Assembly (NCBI GenBank): GCA_029237825.1
Contig: JAQZBQ010000006.1
Coordinates: 62,001-126,000 of the forward strand
Source: Bacteroidota bacterium
GTDB taxonomy: Bacteria; Bacteroidota; Bacteroidia; B-17B0; Aurantibacillaceae
Direction of reading: 5' to 3'
DNA length: 64,000 nucleotides
Shown: positions 38,834-62,136 of the stretch, piece by piece
How positions within the stretch are numbered: the stretch's first letter is position 1
How the letters are laid out: each line of letters starts with the position of its first letter
Position numbers and translations under genes: made by a program
Notes under the pieces: model-generated
Seen by the model: the letters and a program-made list of their open reading frames with translations, nothing else
What the model was told of the DNA's origin: nothing
Database searches by the model: none

Positions 38834-39913
38834 GTGAGAAATTGGCTTACCCTCATAATGTTAGTTTTAATTAATGGCCTCGCTAATGCCCAGGATTCAG
38901 TTGACAAAAGTCCAATAACGGTTTCCTTCTACCTGGAGGCTTTTTATAGTTACGACTTCAGTAATCCCAATAACCATGTTAAGCCGCCTTTTCTTTATAA
39001 TTTCAACCGACATAACGAAGTCAATTTAAACCTCGGATATATTTAGACAAACTACCTTACAACAAACGCGAGAGGAAACTTTGCACTAATGGCAGGAACT
39101 TATGCTCAATACAACATGAGTAACGAGCAAGGCTTACTGAAAAATATTTTTGAAGCTAACGCGGGTTTCAAACTGTTGAAAAATAAAAACCTATGGCTTG
39201 ATGCAGGAATTTTCCCATCTCACATTGGTTTTGAGAGTGCCATTGGTAAAGATTGCTGGAACTTAACGCGCAGTCTCCTGGCTGAAAATTCGCCTTATTA
39301 TGAAGCAGGTGCGCGTTTAAGCTATACCACAAAAAATGAGAAACTGTATTTAGCGTTACTTTATTTGAATGGCTGGCAGAGAATTCAAAAAAGGAGTGGT
39401 AACCAAAGTCCGGCTATTGGAACACAACTAACCTATAAATCGAACTCAAAATTTACATTTAACTGGAGTACTTATGTAGGGAATGACGTACCAGACAATG
39501 TTTCACAATATAGAATCTTCAATAATTTTTATACCCAGTTGCAAGTCACAGAAAATATTGGCCTCACTGCCGGTTTTGACATCGGATTTCAACAAATTAA
39601 AAATGATGCAAACGCTTTCCATAATTGGCACTCACCAGTTCTCATCGTTCAGTTTAAACCAACTGAAAAAATAAGAATAGCTGCCCGGGGTGAGTATTAC
39701 TCAGATGAGAACGGAGTTATTGTTGCAACAGGAACTTCAAATGGATTTCAAACAATTGGTTACTCACTTAACTTCGATTATGTGGTGAGCGATAATGTTT
39801 TGTGGAGAATTGAAGGCCGTAGTTTGCACAGCATAGATCCTATTTTTATTCAGCACAAGAAAATATCACGCGAAAATTACGCAATCACATCATCATTGGC
39901 AATCGGTTTTTAA
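38834..39913 (+). pseudogene. Porin-like outer-membrane barrel gene interrupted by an in-frame TAG
   Basis: A GTG start at 38834 gives a signal peptide (RNWLTLIMLVLINGLANAQ), then TVSFYLEAFYSYDF and VNLNLGYI, then TAG at 39044-39046. The same frame continues without another stop to TAA at 39913, encoding LTTNARGNFALMAGTYAQYN and a barrel ending in SLAIGF. The two parts join in one frame and look like the family of Bacteroidota outer-membrane porins of unknown specificity, in which the position of the stop is usually occupied by a Lys or Gln codon. One substitution (CAG or AAG to TAG) would explain it. Nonsense mutation, stop-codon read-through or sequencing error are all possible. The end overlaps the convergent MBOAT gene by four bases. 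Confidence 0.8.
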
Positions 39914-41577
39914 AACTGGAAATAGATAAAGGGCTGCATTTCCCCACTCACCATCTGGTAGATGCAAAACGCAAAAACAACTACGGCCACGCTCATAGCA
40001 GGTAAAGGTAATTCAGCAAAGCGAGATCGATACTTTTCTTTTACAGATTCAGGGATCCAATGAATCAGGTATCCAAGTAACATTACAGCAAATACAACGG
40101 CATACCCCCTTATGATATCAAAGGTCAAAGCTGCTCCAAAATGATTGGTGATGCGATCGAAAATTAAACTAACGGTTTCGAGGCTATCGCTCCTGAAAAA
40201 AATCCTTGTGAAACTGATAAACGTTAAAGTAAATAAAACCAATAATCCTTTTACAAATAAAGAATTGGATTCTTTGAACGGCGAAATTTTACACCACAGT
40301 TTATGAATGATAAGCCCTAATCCGTTTAATCCTCCCCAAATAATAAACAGCCATGAGCTCCCGTGCCAGAAACCACCTAGCAGCATGGTTACTAACAAAT
40401 TGATATTGGTATTGACGCTTTGTTTAACTCTCGGGAAAAAGTATGCTAGCATAACAAGCATAATGGCAAGAAAAAGTAACACCAGCAACAACCAGATTTT
40501 TCCGGTAAGGAGAATCAATACAAAAGACAAAAACGCGATACAAATATAAGAACCAATTGTTCCTTTTTTATTTCCTCCTAAAGGGATATACAAATAATCT
40601 TTTAACCAGGTAGAAAGTGAAATGTGCCAGCGTTTCCAGAATTCGCTTACATCCTGCGCTTTATAGGGCGATTTAAAATTTGTTTTTAAACGGTAGCCTA
40701 ACAGTAAGGCTATGCCTATGGCAATATCTGTGTAGCCGCTAAAATCGGCATAGATTTGCAAGGAATAACCGAAAATGCCAAACACCGTTTCCACTCCCGA
40801 ATAATAATTAGGATTGTCGAAAATGCGGTCGATGTAGTTCACGGCAATATAGTCGGCCATGATCTTTTTCCCAAGTCCGTTTATAATCCAGAAAATCGCG
40901 TATCCAAATTCTTTCCTTGTTAAGTTATAAGGCTGGTAAATCTGATACAGAAACTCATTGGCCTTAACAATTGGCCCGGCCACTAAGTGCGGAAAAAAAC
41001 ATACAAAAAAACCATAATCAACAATCGATTTAACGGGTGTTACCTTTGCCCGATACATGTCAATTGTATAGGAAATGGATTGAAACGTAAAGAAAGAGAC
41101 CCCAACCGGTAATATCAGTTTTTCCAAAGGATCGTTTGTTCCGAAATAGGTATTACTGAACTGTGTGAAATAGTTAAAGAAATGAATGTCTGTCCCGGCC
41201 AACTGATTCACGCTATCCACAAAAAAATACGCATACTTAAAGTAACACAGCAGTGATAAATTCAATATCATGCTGATGGCGAGAAATACTTTCTTTTTCC
41301 TCACAGATTCCGTTTTATAAATTAAACGCCCCCAGTTATAATCGCTGATGATCGTAAAAATCAATAATAAGAGAAAGATACCACTGGTTTTATAATAAAA
41401 GAAAAAACTAACCAGTAATAAATAAAACGTTCTGGCATTATTTTTTTTGTAAAGCAAGGAATATACCGCGAGCACCACTGCAAAAAAACCCCAGAAATAC
41501 AATTGGGTGAAAATAACGGGTTGGCCTTTTACATAGAGAAATAAAGGCTTCAGGTATGTAAGAATATCGTTAATCAC
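39910..41577 (-). CDS. MBOAT family O-acyltransferase
   Basis: Multi-pass membrane protein of 555 residues with about 11-12 helices. It contains the AlgI/DltB/PatA-type active-site segments: SEFWKRWHISLSTWLKDYLYI with the His at 318, and GGFWHGSSWLFIIWGGLNG with the essential His at 405. MBOAT proteins of this branch pass acetyl groups across the inner membrane for O-acetylation of polysaccharides. Its start overlaps the stop of the SGNH gene by four bases (ATGA), and a second SGNH gene precedes that, so the three form one operon. The pairing with periplasmic SGNH esterases resembles PatA/PatB or the alginate acetylation system. The sugar target is unknown. Confidence 0.93.
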   Translation of the reverse strand: MINDILTYLKPLFLYVKGQPVIFTQLYFWGFFAVVLAVYSLLYKKNNARTFYLLLVSFFFYYKTSGIFLLLLIFTIISDYNWGRLIYKTESVRKKKVFLAISMILNLSLLCYFKYAYFFVDSVNQLAGTDIHFFNYFTQFSNTYFGTNDPLEKLILPVGVSFFTFQSISYTIDMYRAKVTPVKSIVDYGFFVCFFPHLVAGPIVKANEFLYQIYQPYNLTRKEFGYAIFWIINGLGKKIMADYIAVNYIDRIFDNPNYYSGVETVFGIFGYSLQIYADFSGYTDIAIGIALLLGYRLKTNFKSPYKAQDVSEFWKRWHISLSTWLKDYLYIPLGGNKKGTIGSYICIAFLSFVLILLTGKIWLLLVLLFLAIMLVMLAYFFPRVKQSVNTNINLLVTMLLGGFWHGSSWLFIIWGGLNGLGLIIHKLWCKISPFKESNSLFVKGLLVLFTLTFISFTRIFFRSDSLETVSLIFDRITNHFGAALTFDIIRGYAVVFAVMLLGYLIHWIPESVKEKYRSRFAELPLPAMSVAVVVFAFCIYQMVSGEMQPFIYFQF

Positions 41578-42821
41578 TTTCTCACTGTTGTGTTATACCG
41601 ATAACTCCTGTTGATAGCGTCAAACATGAGATCAGCAAGTATGCGGTATCCTCTGCCATTAAAATGTACTTTGTCTTTTGCTGCCAGGCCCGCTTTTTGC
41701 CATTTATAAATGGACTTATATCCTCCCATAACTGCATATAAATCATATACGGCCGCGCCGTGCCTTTCCATCAATTCGTACATAGCCTCCTGGCCTTTTA
41801 TGGGCCGTTTATTAGAGACTTTTCTGCTCATGTAATTATCGGTTACGGTTGTAAATAAAAACGCACACCGGGGCGACGCTATTTTTATCAGGGTAATAAG
41901 ACTGTCATAATTAGCTATAAACCGCTCTTTTGAAAAATTAGCATCGTGCGTATCATTTACTCCAAGTGAAAAAATTACCAGGTCTGGAGGAATTGTAGCC
42001 AGCTCGTTTACAAATTCCTGGCACCGTAAATACGATGACGTACTTGCGCCATTCACACCAATGGCTGCATAATAAAATCCCGGGTTTGTATTATCAATAC
42101 TAAACCCCCGTAACATGAAATCTTTAATGATTGTATCCTTCCGTAACAGGTTAAAATTGACAGAATCAATAAAGGTTTCAAAGTGAAATTCAGTGTATCC
42201 CAATTTTGGATTGTCCGTTCTTACGTAATGGAGGTCTTCCTGAACCGGAAGAGAAAATTCAAAACTTGGATTGAAATTATGGTAAAGCCTTAAAGAATTG
42301 AAGGTTTGATGATGATTATTTTTTAAAATTTTAAAACCGAACGTATTCGCGCTGTCATTGGTAATCCCAGCCATCCCGGCTAAACCAAGGTTGTCGCACA
42401 TTTCCTTGGCAAGGGCGCTACGTTTTCGAACCCACTTCCCGGTTGTAAATGATTTGAAAAAATTAGGGCTGTTTGTTTTTACAATTCTAAAGGGGAAAAT
42501 AAATGTTCCCCCGCCTTTAAAATTTCCCAGGCTTTGAAATCCGTCCATCAGTACTTCTGTCCAAAATCCTGCCTGAATGTGTGAACCTCCAAAATGAACA
42601 ACAGTCACTTTATTTCGTTTGCCTTCGCGAAGCTCGTCAATCTTTTTATAAAATTTCATGATTTGGGAACTGTCCTTTGCCATGAAAATTCTGCTCTGAT
42701 CGTAATTGATGAAGGTGTATTGCTGGGCATTTACACTGAAGGATGAAAGGAAAAAGACCACAAATAAAAAACCTGCGAACTTCTGAATTAATGCTTTTGC
42801 TATAGTGCCGTATTTTATCAT
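41574..42821 (-). CDS. SGNH/GDSL-like acyl esterase or transferase (first)
   Basis: 415 residues. Signal peptide about 1-32 (FLFVVFFLSSFSVNAQ). SGNH blocks: block I FGGSHIQ with Ser80 (the Asp of GDS replaced by Gly), the oxyanion Asn in SLGVND (289), and the catalytic pair Asp383/His386 in KDKVHFNGRG. This suits a periplasmic transfer partner of the MBOAT protein. The start is 22 bases after the upstream SGNH stop, and the stop overlaps the MBOAT start by four bases. It may hand acetyl groups from MBOAT to polysaccharide or remove them; which is not visible from the sequence. Confidence 0.9.
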   Translation of the reverse strand: MIKYGTIAKALIQKFAGFLFVVFFLSSFSVNAQQYTFINYDQSRIFMAKDSSQIMKFYKKIDELREGKRNKVTVVHFGGSHIQAGFWTEVLMDGFQSLGNFKGGGTFIFPFRIVKTNSPNFFKSFTTGKWVRKRSALAKEMCDNLGLAGMAGITNDSANTFGFKILKNNHHQTFNSLRLYHNFNPSFEFSLPVQEDLHYVRTDNPKLGYTEFHFETFIDSVNFNLLRKDTIIKDFMLRGFSIDNTNPGFYYAAIGVNGASTSSYLRCQEFVNELATIPPDLVIFSLGVNDTHDANFSKERFIANYDSLITLIKIASPRCAFLFTTVTDNYMSRKVSNKRPIKGQEAMYELMERHGAAVYDLYAVMGGYKSIYKWQKAGLAAKDKVHFNGRGYRILADLMFDAINRSYRYNTTVRK

Positions 42822-42843
42822 TTATTTATCCTGGATCTAATTT

Positions 42844-44289
42844 TTACTTCTTTCTCGCAAACTCATTATAGTCATTCATCAATGAAGAATACAATAACAC
42901 CGCGATTTTTCTCGCTCCCCCTGAACTGAAATGAATATAATCCTTTGCTCCAATTCCCTGCTCTACCCAGGCAAGCATACTGTTTCGGCCTCCCATGCAA
43001 TTATACATATCAAAAAAAGCGCAATCCGTGTCAAAGGCCGACCGTTTTATTGCGTCACGTAAATTCTCTAATTGTGGGTGGGTTTGGTAATCTGCTCCAA
43101 CCTTAATACTCATATCAGCAGGCCCAATCACTAAAATGGAAGCTTGTGGCGCCAGCTTTTTAATAGTCACAATTTGTGACTTCAGGTAATTGCCAAAACC
43201 ATCCGCCTGTTCTTTGCTGGTGATATATGGCAGTGAATTCCCTCCAAACTGCAAAATGATTAAACGGGCATTGAGATAATCATAAAATTGTTTTAATTGC
43301 CCGAAATTGATCTGATTAAAAAATGTCCCGGAGCTTCCACGCAACCCGAAATTGTCTACCATTACCCCTTTATTTCCTTCCAGCGACACACCGTAAAAAT
43401 CGGGGCTATCTTTACCTCTGAATTTGAACTCCTGTAACAGAGCTCCCTGGTTAAGGTTAAATTCTTTAATGTTAAAATTCCCGCCCGTGAGAAGTGAATC
43501 CGCGGCATTGAGTGTACCGTTTTCATACAGCTCCACATAGGTTTTGGTTTGAGCGCCACCATAAAATAACTTTATTTTTTTGTAGGCTGCTGCTTTTGGT
43601 CCTCCGTTTTTACTGGTCACTACTTTTACCCAAGCCGACTTAACCTGTGTTGTATCGGTAACCGGCGCGTAATTATAAAACCGCGTAATGTGTGCCAACG
43701 CGCCAAAATTATTATGTTTAACGCGCTTATCTTTTCCCGCGAAAACCGGATAACGGTCCCACCCGGGACTCCATGAAATTTTATTTACAACGCTTGGTGC
43801 CACTGGCATAAATGAAATTAAGCCGGGGCCTTCACCTCCAAACTGACTTTGTAATTTTAAGCGAAGGTAATCACTGATGCGGTCTCCTTCAATTTGCGAA
43901 TCGCCATAATGTAAAATACGAATGCTCTTTTCTTCTTTTCCTATGTTTGCAAGTGAATTAAAAAAATTAGCCATCGCGCTCTTCGTCGCATTTTTGTACT
44001 GAATACTGGTATTAAGTTTAACTGTAGAGTCTTTGGTACTAAGTGGAATTGGTGGTAACGAATCAGTCGCAGTTTCACTTGCTTTATCTTCCGCATCGGC
44101 AAGGGCAACAATTTTTGATATATCCGTTTTTTCTGGTTTCTTCTCAAAGAATAAAGAAGTAAAAGTCGGGTATTGAATAAACAACCTTTCGCCCAGATAA
44201 ATGCCTTTCTCGGGAAACACCAGGCTAATGAGGCCCAACATCGTAAATGTAAAGAACAAAAACAGCAAAGTATGAAACGGCTTATGCAC
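42844..44289 (-). CDS. SGNH/GDSL-like acyl esterase or transferase (second)
   Basis: 481 residues with an N-terminal membrane anchor (LLFLFFTFTMLGLISLVF) and a Ser/Asp/Lys-rich linker to about residue 110. Block I is intact: HYGDSQIEGDR with Ser131. The catalytic pair is D450/H453 in KDYIHFSSGG. The position matching the oxyanion Asn is GGNSLPY, which lacks the following Asp. It differs from the downstream SGNH protein, so the two are not recent duplicates; they may do two steps of one acylation reaction. It is the first gene of the operon and is divergent from tig. Confidence 0.9.
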   Translation of the reverse strand: MHKPFHTLLFLFFTFTMLGLISLVFPEKGIYLGERLFIQYPTFTSLFFEKKPEKTDISKIVALADAEDKASETATDSLPPIPLSTKDSTVKLNTSIQYKNATKSAMANFFNSLANIGKEEKSIRILHYGDSQIEGDRISDYLRLKLQSQFGGEGPGLISFMPVAPSVVNKISWSPGWDRYPVFAGKDKRVKHNNFGALAHITRFYNYAPVTDTTQVKSAWVKVVTSKNGGPKAAAYKKIKLFYGGAQTKTYVELYENGTLNAADSLLTGGNFNIKEFNLNQGALLQEFKFRGKDSPDFYGVSLEGNKGVMVDNFGLRGSSGTFFNQINFGQLKQFYDYLNARLIILQFGGNSLPYITSKEQADGFGNYLKSQIVTIKKLAPQASILVIGPADMSIKVGADYQTHPQLENLRDAIKRSAFDTDCAFFDMYNCMGGRNSMLAWVEQGIGAKDYIHFSSGGARKIAVLLYSSLMNDYNEFARKK

Positions 44290-44560: not shown

Positions 44561-45901
44561 ATGAACATATCTAAAAAAGACATCAACGCATTAACTGCCG
44601 AATTAAGTATCACTTTAGCTCCAGCAGATTACGAATCAAAAGTAGAAAATGCCATTAAAAAAGTGCAAAAACAGGCAGCTATGCCAGGATTCAGACCAGG
44701 AAAGGTACCCGTTGGATTAATTAAAAAGCAGCATGGAAAATCGATTTTAGTGGATGAGATTAATAAAATTCTGAATGAAACGCTTTATAATTACATCAAC
44801 GAGAATAAGATTGAAATTTTAGGAAATCCAATGCCTAAAGAAGATAATAAAATTGATTTTGAAAATCAAACTGAGTGGACATTTAACTATGAATTAGGAT
44901 TAAGTCCTCAGTTTGACGTCAAATTGGATAATTCGCAAACCTTTGTTTACAACACTGTAAAGATTGATGATGAATTAGTGGAGAAGTATCTGAAAGACGT
45001 AAAACGTAACTACGGTAAACCATCGAATCCTGAAGTGGCAGAAGCTAAAGATGTTCTTTACATTGATATTGTTGAATTAGATGCTGAAAACAACATTGTT
45101 CCGGGTGGAATTTTCAAATCAACCAGCATTGGAATTGACCGTCTCAAAAATGAATCGGCAAAAGCAAAATTAACAGGTGCTAAAAAAGAAGATAAAATCA
45201 TTATTAACGCAAACGAACTTTACGATTCAGCAGTCGATAAATCGATTTCATTAGGTATTGATAAAGAATTAGCGGAAAGCTTTAATTCGAACTTACAGTT
45301 AACGGTACGCAATATTGCCCGTATGGAAGATGCCGAATTGAACCAGGAACTATTTGATAAATTATACGGTGCCGGTACTGTGAATTCTTTAGAAGAATTT
45401 AAAGAAAAAATTAAAGGTGAATTAGCACTTATGTTTGCGCAGGATACTGACCGTAAATTTGTGGAAGGTGTTGAAAAAACATTGGTTGAAAAATTAAACA
45501 TTTCTTTACCGGATGATTTCTTAAAACGCTGGTTAATGGCTGTAAATGAAAAACCGTTAACTAAAGAACAACTCGAAGCTGAATATCCTTCCTATGCTAA
45601 GTCAATGCAGTGGAAACTCATCGAAAACAAAATCATTAAGAACAATAACATTGCAGTAACCGCAGAAGAAGCTAAGGAAGAAGCTGGACAATACGTTCGT
45701 TCGCAATTTGCACGTTACGGACAGGTTCCTGAAGAGAAAGAGGTGGCAAAAATTGTTGATGGCATCTTAAGCAAAGAACAAGAAGCTCAGAAGATTTTTG
45801 AAGGTTTGTATAGCAAAAAAGTATTGGATGTTTTAAAAACATCCTGTAAATTAGATACAAAAGAAGTAAGTTATAACGAGTTTTTCGGTATTAACGAGTA
45901 A
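44561..45901 (+). CDS. tig: Trigger factor
   Basis: Ribosome-associated chaperone for nascent chains. The 446-residue protein has the ribosome-binding N-terminus with the signature-like GFRPGKVP (about 45-52), followed by a central domain (about 150-230) in which the peptidyl-prolyl isomerase fold is expected, then the helical C-terminal arms. The Bacteroidota version is usually divergent in the isomerase domain, as here. It has its own promoter. The KAS III gene follows after 43 bases, so partial co-transcription is possible; no terminator was found. Confidence 0.95.
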   Translation: MNISKKDINALTAELSITLAPADYESKVENAIKKVQKQAAMPGFRPGKVPVGLIKKQHGKSILVDEINKILNETLYNYINENKIEILGNPMPKEDNKIDFENQTEWTFNYELGLSPQFDVKLDNSQTFVYNTVKIDDELVEKYLKDVKRNYGKPSNPEVAEAKDVLYIDIVELDAENNIVPGGIFKSTSIGIDRLKNESAKAKLTGAKKEDKIIINANELYDSAVDKSISLGIDKELAESFNSNLQLTVRNIARMEDAELNQELFDKLYGAGTVNSLEEFKEKIKGELALMFAQDTDRKFVEGVEKTLVEKLNISLPDDFLKRWLMAVNEKPLTKEQLEAEYPSYAKSMQWKLIENKIIKNNNIAVTAEEAKEEAGQYVRSQFARYGQVPEEKEVAKIVDGILSKEQEAQKIFEGLYSKKVLDVLKTSCKLDTKEVSYNEFFGINE

Positions 45902-45944: not shown

Positions 45945-47084
45945 ATGCAGGGAGTTTATATCACCAAGGCAGCAAAGTATTTACCTAACGAACCCATTTC
46001 TAATGAGGAGATGGAAGACTATTTAGGTATGATTGATGGTGTACCTTCTAAAGGGAAACGATTAACACTGCGTAACAATGGAATTAAAACCCGTTATTAT
46101 TCCATTGACAAAACAGGGAAGTCTACACATACCAATGCAGAAATGGCTGCCCGAGCAATTGAAAAACTCACGGATGAGCATTTTAAAATTGATGATATTG
46201 AAATGCTTGCCTGCGGAACGGCTTCTCCTGATAACCACATGCCTTCGCATGCGGTAATGGTGCACGGAGAGCTTAAAAACAGCAAACCATTGGAATTAAT
46301 TTCTCCGGCGGGATCCTGCTGCGCAAGCATGCAATCACTTAAAGCCGGTTACTTATCTATATTAGCGGGTAACACCTCGAACGCGGTAGTGAGTGGTTCG
46401 GAAAAACTTTCTTCGTTCATGCTGGCGTCTCATTTCGAAAAAGAAACCGAACGCTTAGCAGAGTTTGAACAAAATCCAATGATTGCGTTTGAAAAAGATT
46501 TCTTACGCTGGATGCTATCGGATGGAGCAGCTGCTTTGTTGCTTGAAAACAAACCCCGACCAGATTCTTTGAGTTTAAAAATTGAATGGCTTGAAATTCG
46601 TTCATATGCTAATCAATTGGAAACATGTATGTATGTTGGCTCCGAAAAAAATGAAGATGGTAGCATCAAAGGATGGAAAGAGTTTACGCCTGACGAATGG
46701 CTTGAAAAATCCATTTTTTCGTTTAAGCAGGACACTAAATTATTGGGACGAGAGATCGTTCCAACCGGCACCAAATACCTCAAGGAAATATTAGATAAGC
46801 GCGGATTCGATGTTACTACCATCGACTATTTTCTTCCGCACCTGTCATCTGAATTTTTCAGGTCTAAAATCGCTGATGAAATTTTAAAATATGACATTCA
46901 GATTCCTCAGGAAAAGTGGTTTACAAATTTGACGTCAACAGGAAACATTGGTTCGGCTTCTATCTTTATGATGGTAGAAGAATTAATGAATTCAGGGAAA
47001 TTAAAAAAAGGCCAGAAAATCCTTCTCATGGTTCCTGAAAGCGCGCGGTTTACCTATGCCTACTGTTTACTAACAGTTTGCTGA
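45945..47084 (+). CDS. Beta-ketoacyl-ACP synthase III family protein
   Basis: 379 residues with the thiolase fold. The catalytic triad is visible: Cys126 (in SCCAS), His299 (FLPHLSS) and Asn334 (STGNIGS). Compared with FabH (about 320 residues) it is longer, and the Cys stands in GSCCASMQ rather than AACAGF, so a condensing role with another acyl starter is likely (DarB-like or a relative). It may also act without condensing, as an acyl transferase. The gene is the first of three tightly packed genes; the unknown gene starts 15 bases after its stop (or overlaps, with an alternative start at 47078), and the BtrH-like gene overlaps the end of that one. A link to acyl carrier protein biochemistry is supported by both partners. 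Confidence 0.9.
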   Translation: MQGVYITKAAKYLPNEPISNEEMEDYLGMIDGVPSKGKRLTLRNNGIKTRYYSIDKTGKSTHTNAEMAARAIEKLTDEHFKIDDIEMLACGTASPDNHMPSHAVMVHGELKNSKPLELISPAGSCCASMQSLKAGYLSILAGNTSNAVVSGSEKLSSFMLASHFEKETERLAEFEQNPMIAFEKDFLRWMLSDGAAALLLENKPRPDSLSLKIEWLEIRSYANQLETCMYVGSEKNEDGSIKGWKEFTPDEWLEKSIFSFKQDTKLLGREIVPTGTKYLKEILDKRGFDVTTIDYFLPHLSSEFFRSKIADEILKYDIQIPQEKWFTNLTSTGNIGSASIFMMVEELMNSGKLKKGQKILLMVPESARFTYAYCLLTVC

Positions 47085-47098
47085 TTTTCCCAATTGAA

Positions 47099-47515
47099 AT
47101 GAAAAAAGAAGAATTACCACAGGATCATTCTGCACTGAGCGGTGTAACCCGCGAAGTTTGTTATGTAAAAGACGCCAATGGTAAATACGTTTCTGACCTG
47201 AGCACAGGATGGGAAGTTAAAAAACAAGCGCTTGATAATGCCTGGGACGATATTAAAGAGCGCGTAGAAGAAGCCTCGTTAAAAGTAAGGAATGGCGAAG
47301 TAAGCCCCGTCTTTTACTTTATGGAACTTAAATTAATGGATCTTTCTGTATTATCAGGTTATACCGGTTTCTGGAAATGGACCATCAAACGTCATTTCAA
47401 GCCCTCTGTCTTCAAAACCCTGAGTGATTCCAAATTAAAAATCTACGCTAAAGTTTTTGACATTAGTATAGAAGAACTGAAAAACTTTAATGGAAAAACT
47501 AATTCTTCCTTATAA
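47099..47515 (+). CDS. Small protein of unknown function in the KAS III / BtrH-like cluster
   Basis: The start at 47099 (MKKEELPQDHSALSGVTREVCYVKD) gives 138 residues. An ATG at 47078 is also in frame but overlaps the KAS III gene. The sequence is soluble, has no signal or membrane helix, and shows a helical centre (KKQALDNAWDDIKERVEEASLKVRN) and a second helical part (GFWKWTIKRHFKPSVFKTL). No family is recognised. Conserved position between a condensing enzyme and a BtrH-like protein suggests a cognate scaffold or acyl-carrier adaptor, but there is no phosphopantetheine Ser motif, so it is not an ACP. The end overlaps the next start by 26 bases, so translation is coupled. Confidence 0.75.
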   Translation: MKKEELPQDHSALSGVTREVCYVKDANGKYVSDLSTGWEVKKQALDNAWDDIKERVEEASLKVRNGEVSPVFYFMELKLMDLSVLSGYTGFWKWTIKRHFKPSVFKTLSDSKLKIYAKVFDISIEELKNFNGKTNSSL

Positions 47516-48512
47516 CCACATTCAAACCGCGCATTGTGAAAACGGCGTAGCTACAGGACTTTTACGGCACCATGGACTGGAATTTATGACCGAACCGCTC
47601 ATGTTTGGGCTTGGATCTGGCATTTTTTACATTCATATTCCCTACCTGATGGTAAACGGCGGGCCTGCGGTTTCGTACCGAAGTATGCCGGGCTGGATTT
47701 TTAGCAGGGCCAGTAAACTTTTAGGAATTAAAGTGAATCGCAAAAAATTCAGCAGCGAAAAAGAAGCATACGAATACCTGAACAAACAAATTAAACTTGG
47801 CAACCCGGTTGGATGCCAGGTTGGTGTGTTTAATTTACCGTATTTTCCCTCTGAATACCGCTTTCATTTCAATGCCCATAATTTAGTGGTGTACGGCAAA
47901 GAAAATGGTAATTACCTGGTAAGTGATCCTGTAATGGAAACAGTGACTAGTTTATCGGAAGACGACATGCTGAAGGTGCGTTTTGCGAAAGGACCTTTGG
48001 CGCCGAAAGGACACGTATATTATCCCGAAAATGTGAAGCCGGTATCCAAGGAACATTTGCAGAAGGTTATCTATAAATCCATTCGCCGTTCAGCATTTGA
48101 CATGTTGAGTATTCCTGGTCCGATTGTAGGTGTAGACGGTATTCGTTACACAGCAAGACAAGTGAGAAAATGGCGTGAAAAATTGGGCCCGCGTAAAGCA
48201 GGATTATACCTGGGCCAGATTGTTCGAATGCAGGAAGAAATTGGAACCGGGGGTGGTGGATTCAGGTTTTTATATGCCGCATTTTTAGAACAAGCTAGTG
48301 AAATAACAGGTAACACCAAACTTTTGAAAATCTCTGATGAATTTACGAAAGCAGGAGATTTATGGAGAGCCAGCGCTGTTAATATGGGTAGGATTTATAA
48401 AGGTCGCCTAAACGATCAAAAAGATTTTAACGAGAGCGCCAACATGCTGGATGAAATTGCAGAAATTGAACGGGCTGCATTTAAAGAGTTGCGGAAGATT
48501 AAAGGTATTTAA
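47490..48512 (+). CDS. BtrH N-terminal / DUF4872-like protein
   Basis: 340 residues. The N-terminal half resembles the C39-peptidase-like fold of BtrH: Cys16 in AHCENGVATGLLRHHG, His130 in RFHFNAHNLVVYG, and an Asp in YLVSDPVME (146) in triad order Cys-His-Asp. The C-terminal half is helical (DUF4872-like; KSIRRSAFDML, YTARQVRKWREKLG). BtrH of Bacillus circulans transfers a gamma-glutamyl-GABA acyl group from an acyl carrier protein to butirosin; this one pairs with a KAS III protein, so transfer of a fatty or keto-acyl group from ACP to an unknown acceptor is proposed. The domain call is from recalled family features, and a cysteine-protease role is the alternative. Confidence 0.75.
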   Translation: MEKLILPYNHIQTAHCENGVATGLLRHHGLEFMTEPLMFGLGSGIFYIHIPYLMVNGGPAVSYRSMPGWIFSRASKLLGIKVNRKKFSSEKEAYEYLNKQIKLGNPVGCQVGVFNLPYFPSEYRFHFNAHNLVVYGKENGNYLVSDPVMETVTSLSEDDMLKVRFAKGPLAPKGHVYYPENVKPVSKEHLQKVIYKSIRRSAFDMLSIPGPIVGVDGIRYTARQVRKWREKLGPRKAGLYLGQIVRMQEEIGTGGGGFRFLYAAFLEQASEITGNTKLLKISDEFTKAGDLWRASAVNMGRIYKGRLNDQKDFNESANMLDEIAEIERAAFKELRKIKGI

Positions 48513-48683: not shown

Positions 48684-51600
48684 CTATTTATTCAAAACAA
48701 TCTTCTCACGTTTCACAATCCGATCATTCTGATATACATTGACAAAGTAAATACCATTAGCAAAATCATCTAAATGCAATGTATGAGTAAAGTTAGTTGG
48801 AACTTCGCCTAATAATATTTTCCCATCAACAGAAATTACCTCAATTTTTTGTAAGCCTGCTTTTGATTTAATTGTTAATGAGCCGTTTGTTGGATTTGGG
48901 CTAATTGAAATTATATTGCCATTTAATTCAAAGACATCAACACTTGCACCAATGGCTAATAAGGTTCCACTACCGGAGGTTAAAGGAGAAATTAAGCCTG
49001 ACGTTTCTGACTTATACGCCTGTACTAAACCCACATTTAATACTTCGTCTGTTGTTAAACTCGATAAGATTCTATAATGTAACACAGCAATTAATCCGCT
49101 TCCACTCACATTATTATTTACGGTATGTGTAGTTGCAGTAAATAAATAGTTACCCAGGAAATCCAGTTTCCTGAAATGCAAATTTTGATTTGCATTATTA
49201 ATAAATGAAGCCGGATACTCTATCCAAATTGAATTAGACTCAATTAATGTATGATCAAAGCTTACAGTAAATGCTATACCATTAATATCATTAACCGGCG
49301 TTGCAGTTTCCCCTAAATAAACCGATGCAGTTCCCCAATTTCCTTTAGCAACGAATGGCTGGTCCGGAATAACACTTAATTCAGCTACCGTAGCTACCTG
49401 TGCGTTTGGCCTGAATGAGTGGGTTAATCCATAATTATTAAAAATAGCCAATGTATCATCATCATTGATTGTCCCATCTCCATTACAATCGCTGTGGTTT
49501 ACATTTTTCCCATTGGTGATAGTTCCTGCCCAATTATTAGAATAAAACGATTGCCATGTATTACTTAAACCTGTTGGCCGCACAGGCCCGGATTGTAAAT
49601 AATGCAAGCCTAATTCTAATATATCCAGGTAATCGGCCCAGCCATCACTATTTGCATCTCCTGGCCACACATCCTGGCAGGAGCTGTCCATTACTACACT
49701 AACAGTTTGTGTATTGCTACAGTTGTTAATATCCTCTCCAGTTACTGTGTAGGTACTTGTTACTGTAGGAGTAATTGAAATACTTGAGCCTGTAACTCCT
49801 GTACTCCAGGTATATGTATTGGCACCTCCCGAACTTAATTGTATGCTACTTCCTTCACATATAGTAGCACTTGATGAAGCAGTAATTGTAGGCGTCAAAT
49901 TAACCACAATTATACTAACTGCTCCAACATTATCTTCGCAAGCGTTTGCATCTGTTCCTGTCACTGTCACAGTTGTATTACTCATAGGATTCGTAATAAT
50001 ATTACTTCCACTACTAAACGTATAAGTACTGGCGCCCACCGGGCTTATTGTAAAACTTTCAGTACTGCAAATGGTTCCACTATTAACTGTAATCGTTGGT
50101 GTTGGATTCACAACAACAGAGCAGATTGATGTGCCTGTAACCGCACACGTTAGTGAACCTAAAGCAGTAATTGTATAACTTGTTGTAACCGATGGAGAAA
50201 CTACAGCGCTACCACCGCTATAAGAATATGTCGATGCCCCTGAAGGAGTGATCGTAAAGCTGGTTCCGTTACATATAGTTCCACTATTAACGGCAACAGT
50301 TGTTGGAAATGAAGCGCTTACAGACGCATTACTGATAGCAGTATTTATACAACCAAATGAATCGGCCCCGGTAACCGTATACGAAGAATTGACGGTTGGT
50401 GCTACCGTATTACTTCCGGTACTATACACATAAGTCACTCCTCCCGTAGGCGTCATGGTATATGCGCCTCCTATGCAAACATTTTCACTATTTACTGAAA
50501 TAGTTGGCAAAGGACGCACTGTTACCGAACTGATCGCTGTATCAATGACACATCCATTCAAATCGAATCCTGTAACCGTATAGGTTGAAGTCACCGTTGG
50601 CACAACCATAGTCGAACCATTGCTGTAAGCATAAACATTAGCGCCGGATGGTTCCATCATAAAAATATTGCCAGTACATATCGTCCCGCTATTAACCGTT
50701 ATCATTGAACTAGTTGGAGTTGACAACACTACCGCAGCAGTTTTTGAATCTACGCAGCCATTACCAGGTGATATTTCACCTGAAACAGTATATGTAGTAC
50801 TGGTGGCAGGCACAGTTATGCTATTTGCATTTGCACCTGTATTCCATGTATACGTAGTTGCACCTACAGCTGTAAGTGTGGCAGGAATACCGGGACATGC
50901 CGTAACACTATTTACGGTTAATAGAGGAATGGGAAGTACCGTAACGGAAAAAGTTTTTGAGGATGAACACTGTCCCTGATTTGTGCCATAAACTACATAT
51001 GTTTGATTACTTGAAGGATTAACTGTATAAGTAGTTGTATAAACACCGACGGCCCATTGATATGTATCTGCTCCGCTGACAGTAAATGTTATTGGTACAT
51101 TAGCACATGTAATCGTTGGGCCGGCAACAGTCAATGTCGGTGATACTATAGGAGTTATCTGTACTGTATTACTTATTACACCGCAACCATTTGTGGCATT
51201 AATAGTATAAACCGTTTGAGATGCAGGGAAAGGATTTACATAAAAATAACCGGGGCCAACACCACTTGTTGTAATTACTTCCGGTTGCGGAGAAGAAAAA
51301 ACACAATTATTTCCATTCAGATTCAAAGAAGGATTGGCGTCGGAACAAGCCGTATAAGAGCTGGCTGGCATTGTGAAATTTGGTAAAACACTGGCAACTA
51401 TAACTTGCTTATTAAAATTTGACGAACAGCTACTCCCGCTCCATAAGGCGTTAACACTGTAAGTTGTCGTTACAGTAGGTGAAACTACCACGCTTTGACT
51501 TGCTGAAGAATTAAACCAGGTGTTCGAAGAGGCCCCAACTACAGTAAGCGTTGCGGACTGACCTGTACAAATTGGATAAGACGGATTTACAGATACTGAT

Positions 51601-53420
51601 ACAGGATTAGAAATTACCGAAATCGATTGAGACGCTGTATTCTTGCACCCATTTCCATCAGCACCGATAACGGTATAGGTATTACCTACAGTAGGAACAA
51701 AGCTTACGTTATTTGTAATTCCTCCTGTCCAGGTATAACTTGTTGCGCCACCACCATATAAGTAAACAGAGCTTCCGGCACAAATTGTTCCACTGGGCTG
51801 ACTACAATTTGCCGTAACCACGGGAACTGGATTAACTGTAACCGTAAATACAACTTGTTTTATTCCACAACTGGCTGTTGAAGCAGTCAATGTATAAGTA
51901 GTAGTCACCGAAGGTTTTAAAGTAACGGAATTTGTTAATGAGCCTGTACTCCAGGTGTAACTTGTGGCTCCTGTCCCGGTAACGGTGATGCTATCTCCCA
52001 AACAGTATTTTAAACCAGGCTTGTTATGAGTGATTTTAATATTACCCAATACTTTCACACTATCTGAGGTATTTACTACGCAGCCATTAGCAGTTGCATG
52101 ACTCACTATGTAATTTGCACTTACAGAAGGTGTGACCACAATTGAACTGGTTGTTGCTCCGGTATTCCAGGTGTAGGATGGGGCTCCGGAAGCAGTAAGA
52201 GTGGCAGAATTACCAATACAAAACTGATTGTTACCAGTTGTTATACTTAACGTTGGAACGGGATAAAGATTAGCGGTATAGTTAGTTGTTGCTAAACAGC
52301 CATACGCATTTACTCCCGTTAATTTATAAACAGTTGCCACAGTGGGATACGATTTAAAATTTGGATTGTAGCTTACTACAGTAGGTGTGCCTGGACCTAT
52401 AGCTGTCCAGGTATAATTGGAAGCTCCGGTCGCAGACAAATTAATTTCGGATCCCGAACAAACAATAGCGGGCGAAGCAGTAGCTGTTATAGTAGGGCTG
52501 GTTCCAATACTGAATGTGACGGCCGATGTATTGGAACAGGCTGCCGATTTATTCATCATTAAATTATAAACTCCCGGCTGAGTTACAGATACACTTTGGG
52601 TAGTGAGTCCGTTAATTGCACCTCCCGACCAGGAAAAACTGGTTGCGCCAACTAATGGTGCAGTTATTCTGACCGTATCTATATTGCATATACTTATAGA
52701 AGACTGCGCCTGAATTAAATTATAAAGATTTCCATTTACAGTAACATTAGACGGCGTGAATACATTATTGCACAAAGAAGCGTCAATATATGCATACCCG
52801 GTGTGCGCCCCCTGACTTAAGTCACAACCAGATACAAGAACTTCAATAGTAATATTTGTCCCTACAAAGGTTGAAAGATCATATGAAACTGTATTCCAGT
52901 TTTTATATTCATATTGATTGAATGTTAAAAAGCTTGGGTCTCCGCTGCTGCAGGATGCACTGCCAACAATTGTATTAATATAGGCTCCCGGAATAACATT
53001 TCCTGAATTATCTTTGAGAGTAAAATTGAAATAAGGCTGCTCATTGCAGGGATGACCACCATTTTCCATAACCAAAGCGTAACTAAACGCCAATGAGGAT
53101 GCCGAATTAACAAGATAGGTTTGGTTTAATTTATAGGTGTACCCCCCAAAAGAAGTACGGCCAAATCTTAAGAAATTTCCACCTAAAGGTGATGTCATAG
53201 ATATGGGAACAGTGTTCTTTTCTGTCGATCCCGGCAACATTACAGAGTACTCAGTAGATGCAGCATAAGAATACACTGTGTGGAACTGAGAGTCCGCATT
53301 TCCTCCCTCCTGTAAAGTCCAGCCATTTAAGTTGCCTGAACCAAAATCCAAATTTACAGGTTGAGAAATACCAAGTATGGAAAAAGTACAATAAAAACAG
53401 AATAAGACGATTTTTTTCAT
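48684..53420 (-). CDS. Giant Ig-like-repeat surface adhesin with T9SS sorting domain
   Basis: The start at 53420 (MKKIVLFCFYCTFSILGISQ) gives a clean signal peptide and 1578 residues; an ATG at 53450 would add 10 residues before it. After an N-terminal domain (about 20-230) come about 13 tandem Ig-like repeats, each about 60-80 residues, with a pattern such as TITVNSGTIC-x-G-x-SFTI-x-P-x-GA-x-Y-x-Y and ending TVTG-x-D-x-NGC. Cys near the start and end of many repeats could form disulphides. About residues 1200-1290 hold two dockerin-like calcium motifs (GDANSDGWADYLD, DCNGDGTINDDD), then a cohesin-like beta domain, and the end is a T9SS type A sorting domain (ISISPNPTNGSLTI ... GIYFVNVYQ ... 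REKIVLNK). It resembles adhesins or SprB-like surface proteins; the ligand is unknown. Confidence 0.9.
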   Translation of the reverse strand: MKKIVLFCFYCTFSILGISQPVNLDFGSGNLNGWTLQEGGNADSQFHTVYSYAASTEYSVMLPGSTEKNTVPISMTSPLGGNFLRFGRTSFGGYTYKLNQTYLVNSASSLAFSYALVMENGGHPCNEQPYFNFTLKDNSGNVIPGAYINTIVGSASCSSGDPSFLTFNQYEYKNWNTVSYDLSTFVGTNITIEVLVSGCDLSQGAHTGYAYIDASLCNNVFTPSNVTVNGNLYNLIQAQSSISICNIDTVRITAPLVGATSFSWSGGAINGLTTQSVSVTQPGVYNLMMNKSAACSNTSAVTFSIGTSPTITATASPAIVCSGSEINLSATGASNYTWTAIGPGTPTVVSYNPNFKSYPTVATVYKLTGVNAYGCLATTNYTANLYPVPTLSITTGNNQFCIGNSATLTASGAPSYTWNTGATTSSIVVTPSVSANYIVSHATANGCVVNTSDSVKVLGNIKITHNKPGLKYCLGDSITVTGTGATSYTWSTGSLTNSVTLKPSVTTTYTLTASTASCGIKQVVFTVTVNPVPVVTANCSQPSGTICAGSSVYLYGGGATSYTWTGGITNNVSFVPTVGNTYTVIGADGNGCKNTASQSISVISNPVSVSVNPSYPICTGQSATLTVVGASSNTWFNSSASQSVVVSPTVTTTYSVNALWSGSSCSSNFNKQVIVASVLPNFTMPASSYTACSDANPSLNLNGNNCVFSSPQPEVITTSGVGPGYFYVNPFPASQTVYTINATNGCGVISNTVQITPIVSPTLTVAGPTITCANVPITFTVSGADTYQWAVGVYTTTYTVNPSSNQTYVVYGTNQGQCSSSKTFSVTVLPIPLLTVNSVTACPGIPATLTAVGATTYTWNTGANANSITVPATSTTYTVSGEISPGNGCVDSKTAAVVLSTPTSSMITVNSGTICTGNIFMMEPSGANVYAYSNGSTMVVPTVTSTYTVTGFDLNGCVIDTAISSVTVRPLPTISVNSENVCIGGAYTMTPTGGVTYVYSTGSNTVAPTVNSSYTVTGADSFGCINTAISNASVSASFPTTVAVNSGTICNGTSFTITPSGASTYSYSGGSAVVSPSVTTSYTITALGSLTCAVTGTSICSVVVNPTPTITVNSGTICSTESFTISPVGASTYTFSSGSNIITNPMSNTTVTVTGTDANACEDNVGAVSIIVVNLTPTITASSSATICEGSSIQLSSGGANTYTWSTGVTGSSISITPTVTSTYTVTGEDINNCSNTQTVSVVMDSSCQDVWPGDANSDGWADYLDILELGLHYLQSGPVRPTGLSNTWQSFYSNNWAGTITNGKNVNHSDCNGDGTINDDDTLAIFNNYGLTHSFRPNAQVATVAELSVIPDQPFVAKGNWGTASVYLGETATPVNDINGIAFTVSFDHTLIESNSIWIEYPASFINNANQNLHFRKLDFLGNYLFTATTHTVNNNVSGSGLIAVLHYRILSSLTTDEVLNVGLVQAYKSETSGLISPLTSGSGTLLAIGASVDVFELNGNIISISPNPTNGSLTIKSKAGLQKIEVISVDGKILLGEVPTNFTHTLHLDDFANGIYFVNVYQNDRIVKREKIVLNK

Positions 53421-53436
53421 GCAATAAATTATATAA

Positions 53437-53464
53437 CAAATATACCCCAATTATTCTCAGGCAA
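53437..53464 (-). promoter_or_regulatory. Promoter of the adhesin gene (-33/-7)
   Basis: Minus-strand TTG (53462-53464) and TATATTTG (53437-53444) are separated by 17 bases; the -7 box is a full match to TAnnTTTG and lies 16 bases before the ATG at 53420. Confidence 0.6.
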
Positions 53465-61796: not shown

Positions 61797-62136
61797 TGTA
61801 ATGAAGTTTATTAGTTAGTATTCTAAAAGAGTTACGCCATTCTTTAACCGCTTTTGGAGCACCATCAACTAAGTCTTTAGCTTCTTTCAAACCTAAACCA
61901 GTTAAGTCTTTTACAACTTTAACTACACCTAATTTTGCTGCACCAGCTTCAACTAAAATTACATCGAAAGATGTTTTAGCTGCTGCTGCGTCTCCGCCTG
62001 CTGCACCACCACCTGCTACAACTACTGCTGCTGCTGGCTCGATACCATACTCGTCTTTTAATACTGTTGCTAATTCCTGAACTTCTTTAACTGTCAGGTT
62101 TACTAATGTTTCAGCGATTGCTTTTACGTCTGCCAT
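61780..62136 (-). CDS. rplL: Ribosomal protein L7/L12, C-terminus apparently lost
   Basis: Stalk protein that recruits translation factors. Residues 1-99 are a normal L7/L12: N-terminal dimerisation domain (about 1-32), Ala/Gly-rich hinge (about 33-52), and CTD beginning [26 protein letters not shown], with the factor-binding [17 protein letters not shown]. Here the usual last about 24 residues (after KE: GVSKDEAE ... GAEVE-K) are absent. Instead [19 protein letters not shown] runs to a stop inside the start of rpoB. The missing part forms the last helix and strand of the CTD. Removing one T after residue 99 restores Gly-Val but then stops after five residues, so a simple frameshift does not rescue the end. 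A deletion of about 70 bases is the most direct reading. Confidence 0.9.

Follow-up and report, generated by a model that had tools for sequence, protein, structure and literature searches.

A probable darB-darG-darH unit of a dispersed flexirubin-type pigment pathway in a Bacteroidota genome

Layout of the locus and gene boundaries

The window, i.e., the whole stretch of 64,000 nucleotides analysed here (positions 62,001 to 126,000 of contig JAQZBQ010000006.1, assembly GCA_029237825.1), contains a compact three-gene array whose upstream neighbor is tig, with a gap of 43 bases between tig and darB:

44561..45901, + strand: tig, the trigger factor gene (TIGR00115, 192.8 bits against a cut-off of 180.2; synteny)
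45945..47084, + strand: darB, StlD/DarB-family ketosynthase/cyclase (NF053539, NF005293; match to 5gk0; invariant residues)
47099..47515, + strand: darG, small flexirubin biosynthesis protein (NF053545, NF053536; AF2 model; SinR-like fold)
47490..48512, + strand: darH, BtrH_N + DUF4872 acyltransferase (NF053550, PF14399, PF16169; AF2 model; PDB fold matches)
47490..47515, + strand: darG/darH overlap of 26 bases (junction compared with eight relatives)

As originally predicted, the three genes run in one direction (open reading frames 45945-47084, 47078-47515 and 47490-48512, all on the + strand), and the last two overlap by exactly 26 bases (47490-47515). The mechanically delimited darG frame (47078-47515) opens at a TTG at 47078; the true start is the ATG at 47099, as indicated by the MKKExxPQD motif conserved among relatives. 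Comparison with eight relatives indicates that the 26-base overlap is peculiar to the window's genome because the darG stop codon of the relatives has been lost: in overlapping relatives darG ends in GGA-TAA, with the stop lying within darH codon 2 (GAT), whereas in the window this codon is GAA, which turns GGATAA into GGAAAA and extends darG by six residues to the next stop. In the other named loci the distance from the darG stop to the darH start mostly falls between -11 and +4, single values being approximate as the start sites were chosen by a script; hence, close coupling of the two genes is normal. Scanning the tig-darB gap for promoters and terminators returned none above chance.

Family assignments and conserved residues

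The three proteins were named with the curated NCBIfam 2026 models at the cut-offs of those models. DarB scores 604.8 bits against the DarB model NF053539 (cut-off 550) and 581 bits against NF005293, and bears the NCBIfam label dialkylresorcinol cyclase, StlD family. Its closest solved relative, matched over the full length, is StlD, the stilbene ketosynthase of Photorhabdus (5gk0, E 2.8e-128); StlD acts in stilbene formation, whereas DarB lies above a DarB-specific cut-off. Of the triad first assigned to this condensing enzyme, Cys126-His299-Asn334, the histidine and asparagine stand, but the nucleophile is the neighboring Cys125: Cys125, His299 and Asn334 are invariant across 14 sequences and Cys125 aligns with the StlD cysteine, whereas Cys126 is only nearly invariant.

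DarH scores 451.8 bits against NF053550 (cut-off 300; BtrH-related acyltransferase) and combines a BtrH_N domain (PF14399) with a DUF4872 domain (PF16169). The earlier call of a BtrH-like domain was borne out in an HMM search (157 bits for PF14399 against a cut-off of 29.7), as was the proposed Cys16-His130-Asp146 arrangement, with all three residues invariant in 39 sequences. Solved relatives of DarH were not found by sequence search and were recovered by fold search alone: the only strong solved fold matches of the AF2 model (pLDDT 92.7) are AziU2-U3, CcbD and CtaG, at 12-17% identity. Together with BtrH, these proteins (BtrH from the butirosin, CcbD from the celesticetin and CtaG from the closthioamide system) form a group that shares the BtrH_N domain and overall fold with DarH. 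The matches include CcbD crystallised with its PCP and the C11A, H128A and D144N mutants of CtaG, whose Cys-His-Asp residues correspond, with nearly the same spacing, to C16/H130/D146 of DarH. CcbD and CtaG act on acyl groups bound to carrier proteins, and BtrH, CcbD and CtaG acylate amines. For CtaG, transfer of a hydroxybenzoyl group off the carrier protein has been proposed (PMC6772006), and BtrH_N stands beside the C39 peptidases in a survey of papain-like enzymes (PMC10318531). More distant BtrH-like proteins (26-27% identity; L025 and L026) are found in two genomes without darA and probably belong to other acyl-transfer pathways.

The middle gene had been described as lacking a recognised family, which holds for Pfam but not for NCBIfam: DarG scores 193 bits against the flexirubin biosynthesis model NF053545 (cut-off 170) and also matches NF053536, and the DarG model is matched by all 53 DarG sequences gathered from different Bacteroidota. 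The single sequence gave no match in Pfam, PHROGs or the PDB sequences; a match of the DarG profile to 4mud_A (E 0.015) was dismissed as chance, and HTH_26 is weakly matched by 23 of the 53 members (best E 0.0003). In the AF2 model, a low-confidence start is followed by a long helix (residues 38-64) and then by a compact helical domain (70-128); pLDDT exceeds 90 across residues about 50-130 and reaches about 95 or more within the compact domain. Foldseek matches it to SinR-type XRE HTH domains (prob 1.00, TM by target 0.73-0.78, no E below 0.07) and also to the helical domains of HppE/HEPD/MPnS. DarG, so far a name only, is thereby predicted to comprise an N-terminal long helix and a C-terminal XRE-like HTH domain; its recognition-helix region has conserved IKRH residues with an invariant His99, and the domain is basic (pI 9.3).

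These features raise the possibility that DarG regulates the dar genes by binding DNA and has no role as an enzymatic partner, to which we would give somewhat less than an even chance. It is favored by the SinR-like fold of the C-terminal domain, the weak HTH_26 matches and the basic charge. However, almost every locus, dispersed ones included, has darG coupled immediately to darH, mostly with an overlap; the HppE/HEPD/MPnS enzymes match the same helical domain, and therefore the DarG-type fold has uses beyond transcription; and its NCBI name is that of a biosynthesis protein.

Gene order in relatives

Scanning the DarH alignment against 84,980 species genomes yielded 80 named Bacteroidota loci, which are biased to close relatives because they are the best-scoring ones. 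The usual block in these 80 is darA-darB-darG-darH-ABC ATPase-ABC permease-ketosynthase, and this canonical arrangement is seen in most of them, including those of Dyadobacter and Mucilaginibacter. Within this set, darG lies immediately 5' of darH in 79 loci and darB-darG-darH is intact in 71, in keeping with the earlier expectation that the trio is kept together in relatives; darA occurs within 10 kb in 68. ABC transporter genes, also anticipated near the trio, are absent from its vicinity in this genome but present in most relatives (within 10 kb, the ATPase in 70/80 and the permease in 68/80).

Within the genus, we compared eleven relatives over about 19 kb each. Nine have tig-darB-darG-darH, interrupted in one of them by a DUF1702-like gene that separates darB from darG, while the remaining two have, respectively, darH alone and darG-darH without darB; no darA was found in these eleven stretches. 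Although the tig-darBGH order is preserved in the genus, tig itself is outside the pathway.

The remainder of the pathway

In the window's genome, the flexirubin pathway is split over at least six places; beyond the trio, its components are:

contig C22, 427211-428131: darA (61% identical to the homologue of the relative L032)
contig C27, 18.0-20.5 kb: dehydratase-ABC ATPase-ABC permease
contig C33, 55.9-60.7 kb: FlxA tyrosine ammonia-lyase + KR + KS + ACP + LPLAT acyltransferase, beside an O-methyltransferase
contig C26, 34.8-39.9 kb: second polyene set (deacetylase, two KS, KS-like/CLF, ACP)
contig C27, 216.4 kb: flexirubin-type halogenase (71% identical to that of a relative)

None of the NCBIfam or Pfam models identified darA, and the gene was recognised by sequence and by the place of its L032 homologue between darH and darB. 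FlxA scores 819.5 bits against NF053541 (cut-off 700), and a search for the 4-coumarate CoA ligase FlxY returned three AMP-binding proteins, none of which could be pinned to FlxY. Across 60 genomes, comprising this one and its relatives, DarA is present in all 24 with a close DarH and absent from 35 others, the single exception being an incomplete genome with darA but no close DarH (Fisher p 7e-16, a value that ignores shared ancestry). Despite this co-occurrence, darA and darH are often unlinked.

These observations bear on the original prediction, which viewed the trio as sufficient for a small lipid or lipopeptide-like product. Its core, a conserved unit that pairs a condensing enzyme with a putative ACP-acyl transferase of the BtrH type, agrees with the NCBIfam and HMM calls and with the conservation of gene order, but sufficiency does not hold, as DarA and the aryl-polyene genes are needed and lie elsewhere in the genome. 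A stand-alone, new ACP-acyl transfer pathway might still be read from the fact that the three genes form a unit flanked by no further dar or polyene genes; against this, the calls to dar genes are at the equivalog level and the missing partners are encoded in the same genome and co-inherited, making it a most improbable reading. We accordingly rejected a free-standing new lipid pathway given the presence of darA and the polyene genes.

Proposed pathway and mechanism

Flexirubin is an orange pigment that many Bacteroidota carry in the outer membrane. We propose, with considerable confidence, that the trio represents darB-darG-darH of the pathway for such pigments (aryl-polyene dialkylresorcinol esters), acting as follows. 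DarB would condense and cyclise two fatty-acid-derived thioesters to a cyclohexanedione, which DarA, encoded elsewhere here, would aromatise to a 2,5-dialkylresorcinol; for this genome, both activities are assigned by orthology. This step is known from Chitinophaga pinensis, whose darA/darB produce the flexirubin resorcinol (PMC3992019), and from further homologues; in Flavobacterium johnsoniae, mutation of darB gives a flexirubin-negative strain (PMC3992019). In parallel, the polyene gene set would generate an ACP-bound aryl polyene from tyrosine. DarH, as a papain/C39-like Cys-His-Asp transferase, would then take the finished aryl-polyene acyl group from the ACP onto Cys16 and pass it to a phenolic hydroxyl of the resorcinol, yielding the ester pigment, which the ABC transporter and lipid-carrier gene products would subsequently handle. 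DarG would be a small, co-translated partner of DarH, working as a scaffold for DarH and the ACP, as their specificity subunit, or else as a local regulator.

The formation of the aryl-polyene/resorcinol ester is the simplest and most likely reading of DarH, making it a testable candidate for the ester step of flexirubin. In contrast to the amine acceptor earlier suggested for DarH after BtrH, a phenolic hydroxyl is the most likely acceptor; this would be an extrapolation from BtrH, CcbD and CtaG, a fold group in which amines are acylated, to a member that probably acylates a phenol. Pseudomonas chlororaphis makes free resorcinol via darABC with the regulators darSR and no listed BtrH-type gene (PMC6403133), which is consistent with DarH acting after resorcinol formation. 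The literature searched held no biochemical evidence on DarH or DarG; under these names it offered only the table for Azoarcus, where the letters denote other genes.

It is also conceivable, though rather unlikely, that the trio functions in the dialkylresorcinol pathway while the ester is made by a FlxW-like ligase or an LPLAT-type acyltransferase, with DarH shuttling fatty acyl groups between the ACP and DarB/DarA or editing stalled ACPs. The position of darH directly behind darB and darG and away from the polyene genes, both here and in relatives, would fit such a role, and the ligase-like FlxW was put forward by Schoner et al. as the enzyme of ester formation (PMC3992019). However, a heterologous host needs no more than DarA and DarB to form the resorcinol (PMC3992019) and Pseudomonas makes it free with no BtrH gene listed (PMC6403133), indicating that an acyl-shuttling step is unneeded; further, the fold relatives of DarH are terminal acyl transferases.

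Returning to the ester-forming reading of DarH, a more specific version might be entertained tentatively, as something to be doubted rather than expected: DarG could be an HTH protein no longer on DNA that has become the obligatory partner of DarH for carrier-protein docking or acceptor positioning, with DarH being the long-missing ester-forming enzyme of flexirubin, an O-acylating version of the BtrH fold.

Comparison with known clusters

The dar/flx clusters of C. pinensis and F. johnsoniae share with this genome darB with darA, an FlxA-type tyrosine ammonia-lyase and KS/KR/ACP polyene genes, but here these occupy at least six loci, and darBGH sits behind tig, at a distance from both darA and the ABC transporter. 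The Azoarcus dar cluster has the order darA-darB-(conserved hypothetical)-(BtrH-like)-ABC, and the organism makes an aryl-polyene-DAR ester (PMC3949708). This arcuflavin cluster of Azoarcus sp. BH72 (darA-darB-darD-darE-darF...) has, after darB, a small conserved hypothetical gene and then a BtrH-like one, as in the window; its darD/darE equate to DarG/DarH by position only, with different gene letters, and its single dar cluster is unlinked to the xanthomonadin-type polyene genes. The pathway is a known one in a new arrangement, and apart from its splitting the find is an ordinary one. The analysis establishes what the trio is and unites scattered genes in a single pigment pathway, whose unlinked parts would make it escape cluster-based tools.

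Flanking and accessory genes

Upstream of tig, 39910-44289 (- strand) encodes an MBOAT acyltransferase and two tandem SGNH-hydrolase-like proteins (named by eye), which keep their order with tig-darBGH in the genus and look like an exopolysaccharide O-acetylation module. On the other side, 48684-53450 (- strand) encodes a protein of 1588 aa that contains numerous Ig/PKD-like repeats and ends in a C-terminal tail like those of type IX secretion; counterparts of it, variable in length, adjoin darH in many relatives from the genus. A gene that we take to be DUF1702-like and that has no match in NCBIfam (L042:10133-10936, - strand; L069; L090) is a possible flexirubin tailoring gene: one relative carries it inserted in the darB-darG interval, and in others it lies close to the halogenase and to darG or darB. 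Finally, an O-methyltransferase (L060:12686-13753, - strand) is divergently oriented from the flexirubin tyrosine ammonia-lyase gene of the same genome and is a candidate for the ring methylation enzyme.
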